Shown here: one piece after another, positions 34,651 through 42,439 of the stretch
Layout of the letters: every line of letters begins with the position of its first letter
Numbering within the stretch: position 1 is the first letter of the stretch
Source: Bacteriovoracaceae bacterium
GTDB lineage: Bacteria; Bdellovibrionota; Bacteriovoracia; Bacteriovoracales; Bacteriovoracaceae
DNA length: 64,000 nt
Direction of reading: 5' to 3'
Assembly: GCA_029865945.1 (NCBI GenBank)
Contig: JARXAH010000094.1
Span: forward strand, 1 to 64,000
Program-made: the position numbers and the translations under genes
The notes under the pieces: generated by a model
Told to the model about the DNA's origin: nothing
Databases searched by the model: none
Seen by the model: the letters and a program-made list of their open reading frames with translations, nothing else

Positions 34651-37077
34651 TTAAACGTAGGGCAAGTGAGGAGGAGAATCTTTCTCTTCTTCATTGGCCC
34701 CTTTTAAATAATTTTCTTCTTGCTGATGACTCATGAGCAAGTGCTCTACTCCCGCCAAACACTGATTCATATTTTGAGATTGCATAAATAAACTTTTTAT
34801 CACATCAGCAAATTTTTCTTCTTCCAATGAAGATTCATTTCGCAAACGATCAATTTCTTTTTCAAGTCGCTGTCCATCTTCTTGCACTTTTGTGACGGCC
34901 ACAATGTCATCTGATTGCTCTAGGCCAAGTTTCTTTAAATCATCGATGAGTAAATTTAATTTGGAGAAGAAAGTATCACACTGGATAAAAAGTTTCTCAT
35001 CGTTCGTAAAATAATCTTGAATCTTATTGACATCTTTAACAACAGGATCGAGGGAGACACCCGCGTTTTTGACAACATATTTTTCCAACGTCTGCTGAGC
35101 ATATTTAATAAATTTTGAATGATAATTTTTTGCGTGCATCAAATGATCGCGGTGCTCTTTAATCGATTGTTTGAGCGGAACAAGGAGGGCCGCGGCCTGA
35201 ACTACGCGAAATAATTCTTCTTTCACTTTGCGGTGCAAGGAAAATAGTTGCTGATAATTTTGGGATACTATTTTCATAGAATATAAAGAATCTCTACTTC
35301 TCTCCCCTATTTGAGAGCTCCACTGACACAAACTTAGTAAATGATCTTTGCTAGCGATTAAAGTTTTTGCTTTATTTTTATTGAGAGCTTTAAGTTCTCT
35401 CGAAGATTTTTCTAATTTTTCAATTAAAACAAATTTTTCTTGCAGCGATAAATCGGCCAGATGAATTTCTTCAACCAGCTGACTCCACTTAAATTCAAAT
35501 TTCTTATAGACTTCTGCAAAGAGTGCGTGAATTGGGCCGATATCTCCTATCTCGTATTCGCGCAAGCTACTTGCCTCAAATTTTGGCCCGTACTGTTCAT
35601 CTAGCATCGCCTCTAGTGTACGACGAACTGGATTAACAATGGATTTGGTTTGGATACTAATGGTCTCCTCTAGTGTCATAAGAGGATAGAAAAATAACAA
35701 GCACTGGGATTTTTCTAGATAATTAACTGGGCATACGAACATTTGATAAGACTTGGATTCAAGTGACTTAAAGGGCTTGATTTGTACTTGGTAAATTCCA
35801 TGATTTTTTGTTGATAGTGATTCTGATACTGGATCGTTGGATCCAATGTTGGTCATGTTGACTAAAAAATCCCAACTCAATCTTTCTTTCGATAATGTTT
35901 CTTCATCAATTTCCCACTGCTCAATAAAGAGGCGATTAAACCATTTAACTTGCTTACTCTCCTCGACGAGGATGCTAGCAAAAGGAATTCCCTCTTGAAA
36001 AATATTTCCAAAATTAATTCGCTTCTGAAGATAGTCACTTATGTTCATGAGAGTTGAGCGAAAATTAGGGTTGTGTTCTTGAAGTTCTGATTGATCATTT
36101 TTTAAAACAGCGCGATCAAATACATGTAAATAATGTTGTTCTTGAATTTTCATTTGGGATCTTTTCCAATAATTTTCAAATAGAAAATACCCAAATAAAG
36201 CAACCACCGAAAAGGACAAAACGAGAAGTGGAAAAAAGAAGGGACTTATCGAAGATCCTTTTGTTGATCCACTTGCGCTGGCAAAATTAGGACTTACTTT
36301 AGCTTGATTAAATTTTTCATTTTTTAAGATACTTGTAACCGCGGCCACATAGTCGGCCTGGGAGTTCACAACCGAATAGTACTTATCAAGCAAAGGTGAG
36401 TAGTTGGACCAGAGATCTTTAAGGGGTTTAAGTCGTCCAAGAAGAACGTTTTTATTTTCCTCTTTCATCTGTGAAGTTTGAATCAGTTCAACCATCTGCT
36501 CCATGTCTTTAGAATTAAGCCCGATAATCTGAGTGTAATTTTTTTGCTGCAAAATAACTTTGGAGCGCAAATTGAAGCGCTCTACAATTTTTTTTAGATT
36601 AGGCCAATTATTTTGTCCAATAAACGAAAATAGTCCTTCACTCTCTTTAGAGATTTTTTGATAGAAGGCCTCCTTATCGGAAGAAATATTCGTTTTAACA
36701 AGGATGGTTAATGCATCTAATTTACTTCGAAGCAGTGACAATTCATTATTTTCTAATTGGGGGCCTAAAATTTTTAAATCATTTTCAAAAAGTCTAATTT
36801 GATCTTGGGATAAAATCTTAAAATCTTGTTCTTGGGCATATCTATTTTTAAGATTGCGAATATCAAAATTATTGGTTGATTGATCCAACGCCGCCGCAGA
36901 AGTCTTAGCGGGCGATTTAGTAAAAAAATGCAGCCACTCCACTTCTTCCAGGTAGACGCGGCCTAAATAGCCTAGAGTCACCAAGAGGAGACCAGAAATC
37001 ATCATCAAGAAATAATGCTGAGATTCAAAATTTTTTGGAAAAAGTTTTTTCACTAACGATTGATTGTTTGTTTCCAA
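34651..37077 (-). CDS. Membrane PAS-like, coiled-coil signalling protein at the end of the motility operon
   Basis: 808 aa. TM1 is at residues about 22-39, an extracytoplasmic helical region runs from 40 to 280, and TM2 is at 280-301. The cytoplasmic part has a PAS-like segment (about 355-470, with SILVEESKQVKWFNRLF), followed by a long coiled coil to the C-terminus. There is no histidine-kinase, GGDEF or clear MCP signalling-tip sequence. The layout resembles a chemoreceptor or sensor without an output domain. Its place after fliA suggests a role in motility control. Confidence 0.65.
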   Translation of the reverse strand: METNNQSLVKKLFPKNFESQHYFLMMISGLLLVTLGYLGRVYLEEVEWLHFFTKSPAKTSAAALDQSTNNFDIRNLKNRYAQEQDFKILSQDQIRLFENDLKILGPQLENNELSLLRSKLDALTILVKTNISSDKEAFYQKISKESEGLFSFIGQNNWPNLKKIVERFNLRSKVILQQKNYTQIIGLNSKDMEQMVELIQTSQMKEENKNVLLGRLKPLKDLWSNYSPLLDKYYSVVNSQADYVAAVTSILKNEKFNQAKVSPNFASASGSTKGSSISPFFFPLLVLSFSVVALFGYFLFENYWKRSQMKIQEQHYLHVFDRAVLKNDQSELQEHNPNFRSTLMNISDYLQKRINFGNIFQEGIPFASILVEESKQVKWFNRLFIEQWEIDEETLSKERLSWDFLVNMTNIGSNDPVSESLSTKNHGIYQVQIKPFKSLESKSYQMFVCPVNYLEKSQCLLFFYPLMTLEETISIQTKSIVNPVRRTLEAMLDEQYGPKFEASSLREYEIGDIGPIHALFAEVYKKFEFKWSQLVEEIHLADLSLQEKFVLIEKLEKSSRELKALNKNKAKTLIASKDHLLSLCQWSSQIGERSRDSLYSMKIVSQNYQQLFSLHRKVKEELFRVVQAAALLVPLKQSIKEHRDHLMHAKNYHSKFIKYAQQTLEKYVVKNAGVSLDPVVKDVNKIQDYFTNDEKLFIQCDTFFSKLNLLIDDLKKLGLEQSDDIVAVTKVQEDGQRLEKEIDRLRNESSLEEEKFADVIKSLFMQSQNMNQCLAGVEHLLMSHQQEENYLKGANEEEKDSPPHLPYV

Positions 37078-37208: not shown

Positions 37209-37994
37209 TCAAATTTGAAGATCTTCTTGCGTTTCAAATTCCTTACGTAGTCTCGCCCTGAGACGCAAAATAGCTTGTGTATGAAGTTGGGATACGCGGG
37301 ATTCAGTGACTTCGAGGACAGTTCCTATTTCTTTTAAATTTAAATCTTCATAGTAGTAAAGGGAAAGCACTAATTTCTGCTTCTCAGGTAGCGACATGAT
37401 GCCGTCTTTTAGCAGCTCTTGAACATTTTTAAAATTGACGGCCGCAAAAGGATTGAGTCCTCGCCTATCTTCGAGTAAATTTCCTAAAAGTTTTTTATCC
37501 CCGTTCTTCATAATATTGAGGTCATCAATATTGAGGAGACTTATGGATTGCGCCTGGCCAACTAGGTCATGAAATTCTTGGAGATTCATTCCCATATGCT
37601 TACACATTTCATCATCCGTGGCAGGACGGCCAAGATCTCGCTCTAATTGCACATACATTCTTTCCACTAATTTTGCTTTTTCTCGCACCGATCTTGGAAC
37701 CCAATCTTGGGCACGAAGTTCATCTAGGATCGCCCCTCTGATTCTGAATTCCGCATAAGTTTTAAATTTATTGTCACGGCCTGGATCGAACTTATCGATG
37801 GCATCCATGAGGCCGATGACACCGCAAGAAATAAGATCATCGAGCTCCACGTTCGCTGGAAGTCTGGAAGCTATTTTTTGAGCAATAAATTTTACGAGGG
37901 GTGCATACTCAACAATAATTTGATCTTTCAGTTGTTGATTAATTTTGCAACGATAGTCTTTTAATTTTCGTAATTTTTGAGTGATAGAAGACAT
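37209..37994 (-). CDS. fliA: FliA, flagellar sigma factor sigma-28
   Basis: 261 aa FliA/WhiG-family sigma factor that directs transcription of late flagellar genes. Region 2 includes VELDDLISCGVIGLMDAIDKFD and KFKTYAEFRIRGAILDELR. Region 3 begins DWVPRSVR. Region 4 ends with LKEIGTVLEVTESRVSQLHTQA, the -35 binding helix-turn-helix. Its start overlaps the flhG stop (TAATG). Confidence 0.95.
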   Translation of the reverse strand: MSSITQKLRKLKDYRCKINQQLKDQIIVEYAPLVKFIAQKIASRLPANVELDDLISCGVIGLMDAIDKFDPGRDNKFKTYAEFRIRGAILDELRAQDWVPRSVREKAKLVERMYVQLERDLGRPATDDEMCKHMGMNLQEFHDLVGQAQSISLLNIDDLNIMKNGDKKLLGNLLEDRRGLNPFAAVNFKNVQELLKDGIMSLPEKQKLVLSLYYYEDLNLKEIGTVLEVTESRVSQLHTQAILRLRARLRKEFETQEDLQI

Positions 37995-38809
37995 TAAATT
38001 TCCCCCAAATCGAAATCACGTTCTACTTGTTTTAATGGCAGTTCCATTTTTTTGCTACCCACAATTCCGTGGTAACTCACAGAGTTTCTCTCTATGTATT
38101 CGACCATATTTTGGGAAATATTTAAGAAAAATTCTTCAAAGGAACTTCTTTCCTCTTTGTCATCCAAATGGGGAACGCTGCCAAAAAAATGCAAGGTTTC
38201 TTGGGTAAATTTTTCCGCAACCCCTGTTAAAACTTTTTTAACTCGGTTAACTTGTTCATAATTGTCATAATCATTGATGATAAAACTAAAATGTTTATTG
38301 CCATAAAATTCGAGCAAGATTTTAAATAAGGAGTACCCATCCGTCATCGAAGAGGCCTCTGGGCGAAAAACAATTAATCGCAAGTCGGCAATACTCATGA
38401 GGTTACACTGCTCTTTGATGAGGCCAGACCCCGTATCCAAAATAATGTAGTCGTAATTTTGCTGCGCTTCTGACAGTAAATCGACGATGCGTGTTTGCAA
38501 TCGATATTCGCCCAAAAAAACTTCTTTGTTTCCATTACAAGTGGAAATAAAATCTAAGTTCCCTGTTTTATGAATGAGCGTTTTCCAGTCAGCAAGTCCT
38601 TGTAGATATTTTACAAAATCATCATTGATGGATTGGCCTAAATTGATCGCACAGTTGGCCAAATTGTAGTCGAGATCAAGGAGTAATGTTTTTTTTCCAG
38701 AATCGGCCATGGTTTTGGCCAGGTGGATGGAGGTGAAGGTTTTTCCAACTCCGCCCTTGCCAGAACATACACTGATAATTTTGGCGTTCGAAGTTTTTCC
38801 ATGAAACAT
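37994..38809 (-). CDS. flhG: FlhG (FleN/YlxH), MinD-like flagellar number regulator
   Basis: 271 aa ParA/MinD-family ATPase. The deviant Walker A is SGKGGVGKT near residue 16, LLLDLDYNLANCAINLG is the switch region, and LDTGSG is Walker B. FlhG limits flagellar number and works with FlhF to set flagellar position. It is located directly after flhF and before fliA, as in polar flagellates. Confidence 0.93.
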   Translation of the reverse strand: MFHGKTSNAKIISVCSGKGGVGKTFTSIHLAKTMADSGKKTLLLDLDYNLANCAINLGQSINDDFVKYLQGLADWKTLIHKTGNLDFISTCNGNKEVFLGEYRLQTRIVDLLSEAQQNYDYIILDTGSGLIKEQCNLMSIADLRLIVFRPEASSMTDGYSLFKILLEFYGNKHFSFIINDYDNYEQVNRVKKVLTGVAEKFTQETLHFFGSVPHLDDKEERSSFEEFFLNISQNMVEYIERNSVSYHGIVGSKKMELPLKQVERDFDLGEI

Positions 38810-38868: not shown

Positions 38869-40362
38869 TCATGAATTCATTTCATTTAATCCAAATATTT
38901 TCTTTACTAAAAAATTAGGGTCTGCTGCTTTCCAATCTTGGGGAATTTTTCTTCCCGTACTTAAAACAAAGAGCGGTCGATCATACTGGACAATCGTACT
39001 GTATAAGTTTCCAAGTCCCATGGAACTATCGGTGTGAGTGATGGCCACCCCATCGATCCATGGACGATATCGTTGCATCATTTTTTTCCCAATAATTTCT
39101 TGATGAAGGGCACTCAAGACTAAGACGACTTCAATTTTTTGATGTGATCTTCTTAAGGATTGAATCAGGTTAATCACTTCTTCTGGCCGATCTTGTGGTA
39201 CTTTCAGATCAATAAAAATATCACCTGAGGCATCACTCTTAGTAAGATCACGAAGGGAGGTAATTAATTCTGTAATTTTTTTATAACTTTTAATATCGGC
39301 CCGAAGGAGTTTTGAGGCCAAAGAATCATGGGAGTCAAAAGATTCCTCACTCTCTAATCTTAAAATCGTAGGTCTGTTGGCCATGCTAGATAATTTATAA
39401 ATGAGGGATGATTGGCCACTACTATACTCACTAATAAAAATAGTGATATTGGCCCCACTCTCCGTCTGATTGGATCCATTTCTTATTTGAAAATTGAGGG
39501 GGCGACAAACAATTTTTTTCTCGAGTTCTTTCATGACGAGATCATAAATTTGATCTTCATCAATAGAAGCTAAGTTATCAAATTCATATTCTACTTTTTT
39601 ACAAAGATCATTGATGAGAGGATAAGAAAAATCAAAAACTTTTAAGTTGTGTTGCAAAGACTTAATTTTATCAGATAAAACAAATTCTTCTTGCTCAGAA
39701 TTTGAATTTCTTTGCTCTTCTCTATTCTCTTGAATCATGAGTGAAAGTTCATGCAATTTTCGTCTCAAATCTTCGATTTCATTTTGCTGCCCAGAATATC
39801 TTTTCTGCAAATTTTGAAGTTCTGGAGAATTCATTGTGTTCATTCCAGACCACTCTCTCTCAGAACTTAAAGATGGACTTTGAATTTGTGGAATTTCCGT
39901 TCGCTCGCTTCGTTCATTGACTTTTTTTCCACGAACCACTTCGCTTTGACTTAAAAAATTTTCCAATTCCTCATTTAAATCTGCAGAATTTTGAAGAGAA
40001 GCACTTTGCGCAGGTGATCTCAATTCCTCTGTTCGGCCTTCTCCTATGCGGTTGACCATTTGTTTTGGAGTTTTATTGATTCCCAATTTCCCATAGGAAT
40101 TCAAGGTCGATTCAATATTTTTGGAGCTCGATTGATATAATTTTGTTTTTTGATCTTGATTGAGAAGCGAATCTAATTTCTTTTTCTTTTCGTAATCTTC
40201 TTCCGAAATGGCGGCGGTGATTTCAAATTTTCGCCCCTTAAAGGCGCCCTTAATTCCTTTAAATTCTTCGGTCTTAAGGATGATGGCGTCAGGCCCCAAT
40301 TCTAGCTTGATCGCCTTAAGTACTTCATCCATGGAATCCGCTTCATATTTTCTTACATGCAT
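38869..40362 (-). CDS. flhF: FlhF-like protein with degenerate GTPase motifs
   Basis: 497 aa. The N-terminal basic domain is typical: MHVRKYEADSMDEVLKAIKLELGPDAIIL. A linker follows, then the N domain (about 230-285) and the G domain. Where FlhF normally has the P-loop GPTGVGKTT, residues about 309-319 read FISEYSSGQSS with no Gly-Lys-Thr. The usual DTAGR position reads FIDLKVP (about 383-389), and TKLDE reads THTDSS (442-447). The closing LSTGRKIPQDW is retained. Nucleotide binding is probably lost. The start lies 1 nt after flhA. Confidence 0.88.
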   Translation of the reverse strand: MHVRKYEADSMDEVLKAIKLELGPDAIILKTEEFKGIKGAFKGRKFEITAAISEEDYEKKKKLDSLLNQDQKTKLYQSSSKNIESTLNSYGKLGINKTPKQMVNRIGEGRTEELRSPAQSASLQNSADLNEELENFLSQSEVVRGKKVNERSERTEIPQIQSPSLSSEREWSGMNTMNSPELQNLQKRYSGQQNEIEDLRRKLHELSLMIQENREEQRNSNSEQEEFVLSDKIKSLQHNLKVFDFSYPLINDLCKKVEYEFDNLASIDEDQIYDLVMKELEKKIVCRPLNFQIRNGSNQTESGANITIFISEYSSGQSSLIYKLSSMANRPTILRLESEESFDSHDSLASKLLRADIKSYKKITELITSLRDLTKSDASGDIFIDLKVPQDRPEEVINLIQSLRRSHQKIEVVLVLSALHQEIIGKKMMQRYRPWIDGVAITHTDSSMGLGNLYSTIVQYDRPLFVLSTGRKIPQDWKAADPNFLVKKIFGLNEMNS

Positions 40363-40363
40363 A

Positions 40364-42439
40364 CTATAACCTCACCGTTCCGAGCGATCTTATATTCGCT
40401 TCGGGCCCTATTTCGTTATGACTGACGACTGTTAAATTGGGAATAAATTTTTCCGTCAATTTTTTTAAATGCCTGCGCACAAAAGGAGAACATAAGACCA
40501 CCATCTTTTCTCCCGCTTGCGTCGACTCTTCAATTTTTTCATGGAGGCCTGCTAATAAGTTTTGCGTGGTCTTAGCGTCAATGTTCAATACAAGTCCTTG
40601 TTCTGTTTGATTAATATTATTTACTAAATATTCTTCCAGATTCCGATCTAATGTGAATAGGGGAATATCGCCCTTATCACTTTTTAAACGCTCAGTGATG
40701 GAACGATAGAGTGCTTGTCGGGTAAATTCAGTCAGCGCATCTGCGTCTTTTGTAGAAATTCCGTTTTCTGCAAGCGCTTCAAGAATGGTACGCAAATCTC
40801 TAACAGAAACATTTTCTTTTAATAAATTGCGAATGACTTTAAGCACGACACTTAAAGAAAGAATATCGGGAATCAAGTCAGTCACCACTTTTGGGTATTC
40901 CACTTTAAAATTATCTAAGAGTCGCACTAACTCCTGACGACCAAAGAGATCCGCAAGATTGACTCGCAATACTTCCGTTATGTGAGTGGCCATAATAGTC
41001 GACAGATCCACAACAGTATATCCATTGTACATAGCATCTTCTTTTTGACTCTCGGTAATCCAAACCGCAGGTAAACCAAAAACAGGTTCTGTTGTTTGAA
41101 TCCCATCTATTCGTTCAATGATGGTTCCTGGATCCATCGCCATAAAATGATCCGACATCAATTCACCTTTCGCGACTTCGATGCCTTTAATTTTTATGCT
41201 ATAACCTCCGGCCTTTAATTCCAAATTATCTCTGATGCGCACACTAGGAAGAATGACTCCCCAATCGATGGCAAATTGTTTTCTAATCTGACTAATGCGC
41301 TCAAGCAAATCGCCGCCGCCTTTGCCGTCCACTGTTCCGACTAGGCCATAACCCACTTCTAATTCTACTAATTCCACATTGAGTAAAGTTTCCAATGAAT
41401 CCGAAGTTTTTGTTTTTTGTTGCTCCACTTTGAGTAAATCATTTTTCTCTTTATCAAATTGTTTATTTTCTAATTTGTAGGCAACGAATCCAAGAATTCC
41501 GGCCATCGTAATAAAAATAAAGGAGGGAAATCCAGGAATGATGGCAAAGAGAAATAATATAAAGGAAACAACGTAGAGAACTTTGGGATTGAAGGCAAAC
41601 TGATCAGAAATTTGTTTACCTAACGAAGTGTCCGCATTATTTCTTGTAATTAAAATACCTGCGGCCGTAGCAATAATAATCGCAGGAATTTGTGCCACAA
41701 GTCCCTCACCTACGGTGAGCAAGGTAAAGATAGAAGCGGCCTTAGATAATTCCATACCATGTTGAGTGATCCCAATAACAATACCACCCACAATGTTGAC
41801 AGCAGTAATAATGATACCTGCAATGGCATCACCGCGAACAAACTTAGACGCACCATCCATAGATCCATAAAAATCTGCTTCACGTGCAATATTTTCCCGT
41901 CGTCTTTTCGCTTCTTTTTCATCGATGAGACCTGCATTTAAATCCGCATCAATCGCCATTTGCTTACCTGGCATGGCATCTAACGTAAACCTTGCCGCAA
42001 CTTCCGCGACTCGGCCGGCACCTTTGGTAATTACGATAAAGTTAATAATGACGAGGATTAAAAAGACGATAATCCCTACAGCATAATTTCCCCCGAGCAC
42101 GAATTCTCCAATGGAGTGAATGATTTTTCCTGCCGCATTGGTTCCATCTCCCGCTCCGTGTCCTAAAATCATTCGCGTGGACGCCACGTTGAGTGCCAAG
42201 CGAAAGAGAGTAACGACGAGGAGAACAGAGGGAAATGTGGAAAAATCTAGTGGCGTCTTTGCATATACTGAAAGCATGAGCATCAAAAATGAAATGGTGA
42301 AAACTAAGGACAAGAAAAAATCCATAAAGAATGGAGCGAGAGGAACGATCATTAACCCCAAGACAAAGATGAGGACGATCGTCACGATGAGATCTGAATT
42401 TCGCATCATCGAATTAATGCGGCCTAAGAAACTTTCCAT
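40364..42439 (-). CDS. flhA: FlhA, flagellar export gate protein
   Basis: 691 aa. It has eight predicted membrane segments in the first 320 residues, including the family signature around LDAMPGKQMAIDADLNAG, then a large cytoplasmic domain (about 340-691) that docks export substrates. Length is normal. The start overlaps flhB by 16 nt. Confidence 0.97.
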   Translation of the reverse strand: MESFLGRINSMMRNSDLIVTIVLIFVLGLMIVPLAPFFMDFFLSLVFTISFLMLMLSVYAKTPLDFSTFPSVLLVVTLFRLALNVASTRMILGHGAGDGTNAAGKIIHSIGEFVLGGNYAVGIIVFLILVIINFIVITKGAGRVAEVAARFTLDAMPGKQMAIDADLNAGLIDEKEAKRRRENIAREADFYGSMDGASKFVRGDAIAGIIITAVNIVGGIVIGITQHGMELSKAASIFTLLTVGEGLVAQIPAIIIATAAGILITRNNADTSLGKQISDQFAFNPKVLYVVSFILFLFAIIPGFPSFIFITMAGILGFVAYKLENKQFDKEKNDLLKVEQQKTKTSDSLETLLNVELVELEVGYGLVGTVDGKGGGDLLERISQIRKQFAIDWGVILPSVRIRDNLELKAGGYSIKIKGIEVAKGELMSDHFMAMDPGTIIERIDGIQTTEPVFGLPAVWITESQKEDAMYNGYTVVDLSTIMATHITEVLRVNLADLFGRQELVRLLDNFKVEYPKVVTDLIPDILSLSVVLKVIRNLLKENVSVRDLRTILEALAENGISTKDADALTEFTRQALYRSITERLKSDKGDIPLFTLDRNLEEYLVNNINQTEQGLVLNIDAKTTQNLLAGLHEKIEESTQAGEKMVVLCSPFVRRHLKKLTEKFIPNLTVVSHNEIGPEANIRSLGTVRL

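Follow-up and report, generated by a model that had tools for sequence, protein, structure and literature searches.

FlhF marks the site at which the flagellum is assembled. Mutants disagree between species on how much of its function needs GTP, and the locus described here raises this question in a natural setting: what has become of an FlhF in which the GTP-binding motifs can no longer be recognized? The window (the whole stretch of DNA that was analysed, 64,000 nucleotides of a contig from a Bacteriovoracaceae bacterium) carries flhF among other flagellar genes, and a first-pass annotation had proposed that its product lost the P-loop and other G motifs while the N-terminal domain and the place in the operon were kept. 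The features needed to follow the argument are these, by position in the window:

40364 to 42439, minus strand: flhA, directly 5' of flhF (list of open reading frames; identity by sequence recognition)
38869 to 40362, minus strand: flhF, predicted to encode a pseudo-GTPase of 497 amino acids (open reading frame and translation; profile matches to 2px0, 8r9r and 9en1)
40183 to 40362, minus strand: FliG-interaction domain (FID) of FlhF, residues 1-60, the most conserved part of the protein (conservation profile, omega 0.028, 9en1 match)
38872 to 39681, minus strand: NG domain of FlhF, residues 228-497, SRP-type fold kept (AlphaFold2 pLDDT, Foldseek)
39406 to 39432, minus strand: former G1 or P-loop, residues 311-319, SEYSSGQSS in place of GPTGVGKTT (alignment)
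39196 to 39210, minus strand: former G3, residues 385-389, DTAGR replaced by DLKVP, which retains just the Walker B Asp (alignment)
39025 to 39039, minus strand: former G4, residues 442-446, THTDS in place of TKLDE, with Asp kept and Lys lost (alignment)
37994 to 38809, minus strand: flhG, a MinD-type ATPase gene directly 3' of flhF (KGGVGKT intact; lacking the DQAxxLR helix and a C-terminal tail of the FFWxxLLG type)
37209 to 37994, minus strand: fliA (sigma-28), directly 3' of flhG (list of open reading frames; identity by sequence recognition)

The open reading frames of the window give the order flhA-flhF-flhG-fliA, all on the minus strand, and the operon place of flhF is thereby kept; flhG also lies directly 3' of flhF in about 100 relatives among the loci examined. 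An open reading frame of 808 amino acids (34651 to 37077, minus strand) follows fliA and adjoins the flagellar operon.

To evaluate the fold of the protein, a model was calculated with AlphaFold2 from the window protein and 63 relatives, and compared with solved structures using Foldseek. Model confidence (pLDDT) exceeded 85 for most of the FID and NG domains, and was mostly about 85-96 within NG. The best Foldseek match was 8r9r, a GDP-bound FlhF, with a TM-score of 0.80 by target length; another FlhF, 2px3, ranked third, and other SRP GTPases scored close behind. When a profile of the class was compared with solved structures, the FlhF 2px0 came first, and the solved FlhF FID 9en1 was also matched, at positions 3-56. 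The prediction thus indicates that an SRP-type NG fold is kept, and the conservation of residues 1-60 bears out the earlier statement that the N-terminal domain of FlhF is retained. TIGR03499, the NCBIfam equivalog model for the FlhF flagellar GTPase, covered window residues 1-294 with 57.5 bits against a cut-off of 174.15, and PF00448 matched at residues 391-490 only. The protein has the features of an FlhF orthologue (the N-terminal FID, an SRP-type NG fold closest to FlhF, and the flhA-flhF-flhG order); the features of an FlhF GTPase, a TIGR03499 score above the cut-off and intact G1-G5 motifs, were not found. By descent it is therefore an FlhF, and by definition it is not an FlhF GTPase, because the defining features that were tested are missing.

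The motifs themselves were compared by aligning 110 in-group rows, of which 109 were readable, with 49 outgroup rows that stood for 48 genomes of the phylum, one being represented twice. The in-group was read as the class Bacteriovoracia (one family code, 48 genera, 129 genomes), whose members are mostly predatory. SEYSSGQSS, DLKVP and THTDS all sat in the G columns of canonical FlhF, so the replacements reported for the window were real, and the loss was class-wide. The P-loop Lys was replaced by Gln in all 109 readable Bacteriovoracia rows, as against Lys in 49 of 49 outgroup rows, and the first P-loop Gly had become Ser in 107 of the 109. The G2 motif (DT.[KR].GA..Q), which the first-pass annotation did not list, was erased, and nearly every in-group row has a gap of three residues there. 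At G3 the Asp was kept and the T-A-G-R after it replaced, and at G4 the Asp was kept in 109/109 rows and the Lys in 2/109, with replacement in the remaining 107. The G5 Gly was present in every in-group row that covered its column (108/108). The claim that the P-loop and other G motifs are lost consequently stands for G1, G2 and G3, but G4 is half lost and G5 kept, and the window FlhF still has a Ser/Thr after the P-loop Gln, the Walker B residue D385, D445 of G4 and G470 of G5. That the window FlhF would be unable to hydrolyse GTP is well supported by these changes, and judging from the same loss of motifs, normal GTP binding is probably absent from FlhF throughout the class.

Several trivial explanations were rejected. 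A P-loop that is intact in a shifted position, or misaligned, was ruled out, since every G column lines up with its counterpart in canonical FlhFs. A frameshift, sequencing error or pseudogene confined to a single draft was ruled out by the repetition of the loss in 109 genomes at an omega of about 0.03. A second, canonical flhF was also looked for and ruled out: PF00448 matched only Ffh and the window flhF in the window's genome, and no FlhF above the TIGR03499 cut-off was present in any of the 129 class genomes, whereas 131 other genomes of the phylum pass. FtsY was not found in the window's draft genome, which is 96% complete and yielded Ffh only; since FtsY is present in relatives, a gap in the assembly is the probable reason.

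The class-wide loss of catalytic motifs could also mean that flhF is decaying toward loss and that FlhG alone places the flagellum, as the first-pass annotation had suggested in proposing that the cell might rely on FlhG alone. The in-group formed one clade with support of 100 on a very long stem of 3.35 changes per column, in a quick, unrooted tree that was built without the G1, G3 and G4 columns and in which the window's own row is long. Such a stem would fit decay, as would the 10 of 129 class genomes in which no homologue was matched, although these are for the most part incomplete drafts. Against this, a homologue was found in the other 119 genomes, the Gln is invariant in all readable members and the operon place is conserved. 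Pairwise dN/dS of flhF was 0.02-0.11, similar to that of its ATPase partner FlhG, and values pooled from 13 pairs were lowest in the FID (0.028) and G (0.033), followed by N (0.043) and the linker (0.102). Constraint on the G domain is therefore similar in strength to that on the FliG-binding domain. Decay, largely refuted by omega values of 0.03-0.04 for N and G, is extremely improbable. Reliance on FlhG alone is not supported either, since strong purifying selection in both the FID and the G domain indicates that FlhF is still needed. Because the G domain is under such selection, the sequences indicate that FlhF of the class is a conserved pseudo-GTPase and not a decaying gene.

What selection maintains in the former active site bears on another explanation, in which the pocket has been repurposed and is not empty, so that another ligand, or a guanine nucleotide held without hydrolysis, still controls FlhF. 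Gly-Gln of the P-loop, the Asp residues of Walker B and G4, and Thr-Gly of G5 ranked with the most highly conserved NG columns in the class, and the mean conservation of six such pocket positions lay well above that of other NG positions (permutation p 0.00017, for a set chosen post hoc). New motifs specific to the class, HSExYNRK and [ST]H[LV]DxC, were fixed in most of its members. Since several pocket residues are so highly conserved, another ligand may still bind in the FlhF pocket. However, Lys is missing from the P-loop and G4, Arg/Lys and Gln from G2, and Gly from G3; the window's divergent FlhF has neither the Cys typical of the class nor YN in HSExYN; and the conservation could also stem from constraints of the fold or from a protein interface. 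We regard a repurposed pocket as rather unlikely.

The partner protein has changed too. In canonical FlhG, an N-terminal DQAxxLR helix stimulates FlhF and a C-terminal tail binds the membrane (PMC12826062). DQAxxLR was absent from the window FlhG and from all in-group FlhGs examined. At its place, a motif of the W-L-x-S type was present in 99 of 110 in-group loci, and a conserved N-terminal [DE]WLxS[FQH] was seen in most Bacteriovoracia FlhGs (e.g., L021, L027 and L154); the window FlhG has neither DQAxxLR nor this motif. The FFWxxLLG-type tail of outgroup FlhGs was likewise absent from the in-group C-termini inspected. The deviant Walker A sequence KGGVGKT is intact in the window FlhG, and Walker A was intact in 99/99 aligned in-group FlhGs, a set that had been selected for Walker A. 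Because FlhG of the class is without the activating helix and the membrane tail but has kept its ATPase, control by nucleotide has probably shifted to FlhG. The suggestion that the mechanism differs from that of canonical FlhF is to this extent supported, in that the helix is gone and the ATPase core remains, with the amendment that the FlhF pocket may be repurposed and not simply lost. The FlhG of one locus beside a pseudo-GTPase FlhF (L128, genome G103) reads TAGSPGSGKT for SGKGGVGKT and thus lacks even the Lys that marks a deviant Walker A.

SRP GTPases act in pairs, and the pseudo-NG domain might then serve as the catalytically dead half of a heterodimer with an active SRP-type GTPase (FtsY or Ffh) or with FlhG. 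Strong matches of the Ffh/FtsY type occur in nearly every relative, and the new [DE]WLxS of class FlhG could be read in the same sense, but the composite site of known SRP GTPase dimers requires GTP from both halves, and we found no direct evidence for such a pair. We consider this arrangement improbable.

Other lineages of the phylum show different combinations of the same losses. Bdellovibrionia-like families (f2-f12) resemble Bacteriovoracia in having an FlhG without DQAxxLR and an FlhF with relaxed G3 and G4 (e.g., DFTGL, TGLDE); unlike Bacteriovoracia, their FlhF keeps the P-loop GK[ST] fully and their FlhG keeps the C-terminal FFWxxxxG tail. In six such loci (L085, L086, L088, L092, L094 and L101), GK[ST] was kept beside DFTGL, TGLDE or EMPST. 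These FlhFs represent a possible intermediate state, and since FlhG lacks DQAxxLR while FlhF keeps GK[ST], the comparison suggests, as an order of events still unproven, that the activator helix was lost before the P-loop. One FlhF of family f2 (L093, genome G129) has GPASQGKTT, but DTASN and THLDLC, motifs that are partly common to Bacteriovoracia, and may also be an intermediate.

The reverse case was found in families f23, f24 and f26, in which a canonical FlhF is followed by an open reading frame that starts with DQAxxLR and has no GKGGxGK Walker A. It was present in at least 11 genomes (G318, G319, G327, G336, G337, G338, G339, G340, G350, G354 and G355), with 8-46 bases between FlhF and FlhG where this was measurable. 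The FlhG is 62 residues long in G354 (the helix and a short tail), 128 in G327 and about 180-190 in G338-G340. Two of the 11, G318 and G319, keep a GAGKS-like sequence, and their FlhG may still bind nucleotide. Loci with a DQAxxLR FlhG and no GKGGxGK were L294 (genome G354), L065, L068, L069, L071, L072, L079, L082, L083, L091, L109 and L279. By their motifs, the FlhF and FlhG NTPases are thus altered reciprocally within one phylum. A bolder reading is that the FlhF-FlhG switch was dismantled in opposite ways: the Bacteriovoracia pocket (G-Q-[ST], D, D and T-G, with the new His/Cys/Tyr/Asn motifs) would sense a different ligand and FlhG would keep ATP control only, and in the other lineage FlhG would at the extreme be little more than an activating helix and a C-terminal tail. 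We hold this to be a speculative proposal with the odds against it.

The reading we favor, and think probable, is that Bacteriovoracia FlhF is an orthologue that became a pseudo-GTPase a single time, in the class ancestor, and is now a constitutive adaptor timed by FlhG. The FID would hold FliG, and hence FliF, the pseudo-NG domain would dock on a polar or membrane partner with no GTP on/off step, and the control of timing and number would come from the FlhG ATP cycle and from protein levels, replacing GTP hydrolysis. The simplest reading of the data would thus have FlhF as a nucleotide-independent tether, with the FlhG ATP cycle as the remaining switch. In Shewanella, FliG binding resides in the FID, which spans the first 44 residues, and the NG domain interacts with HubP whatever the nucleotide (PMC11236974), so both tethering contacts would be possible without GTP. 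In Pseudomonas, GTP makes the FlhF-FliG interaction stronger and more stable, and polar position is maintained through the GTPase domain (PMC12713375), so the loss of GTP would have to be compensated. FliG is present in the window's genome. Short stand-alone open reading frames (∼140-160 amino acids) that match only the middle and C-terminal part of FliG (∼195-335) were also seen, for example in the window's genome (G000, C88:19497-19790), and in many relatives, often several per genome. The polar landmark FipA (PF10975) had no match in the class members searched, and the FimV core profile (TIGR03505) had none anywhere searched, in the class or beyond.

Cells of Bacteriovorax stolpii and Bacteriovorax starrii carry one sheathed flagellum, which is polar (PMC7175336). 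A class that includes species described with one polar flagellum, and that appears to have dropped the GTPase and kept FlhF, amounts to a natural experiment, in which tethering and GTP switching would be separable. That FlhG has lost DQAxxLR is consistent with the view that the helix is there to drive the FlhF GTPase, and Bacteriovoracia offer a comparison set for the GTP-dependent steps of flagellar placement and counting. A literature search with limited coverage of subscription journals returned no report of a degenerate or pseudo-GTPase FlhF, or of FlhF in Bacteriovorax or Bdellovibrionota.

Compared with known systems, the window FlhF shares the FID-linker-NG order and the NG fold with the FlhFs of B. 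subtilis (2PX0/2PX3) and S. putrefaciens (8R9R, FID 9EN1), and shares sequence descent and an operon position beside flhA and flhG with canonical FlhF. It differs from canonical FlhF in having no P-loop Lys, G2 motif, G3 GR or G4 Lys, and in a partner FlhG without the activating helix. The pseudoGTPase domains of p190RhoGAP are eukaryotic Ras-like domains. Like the window FlhF, they keep the GTPase fold, have lost catalytic motifs and are retained as domains (PMC5593906); unlike them, the window FlhF is bacterial and of the SRP/SIMIBI type, and its activator has been lost too.
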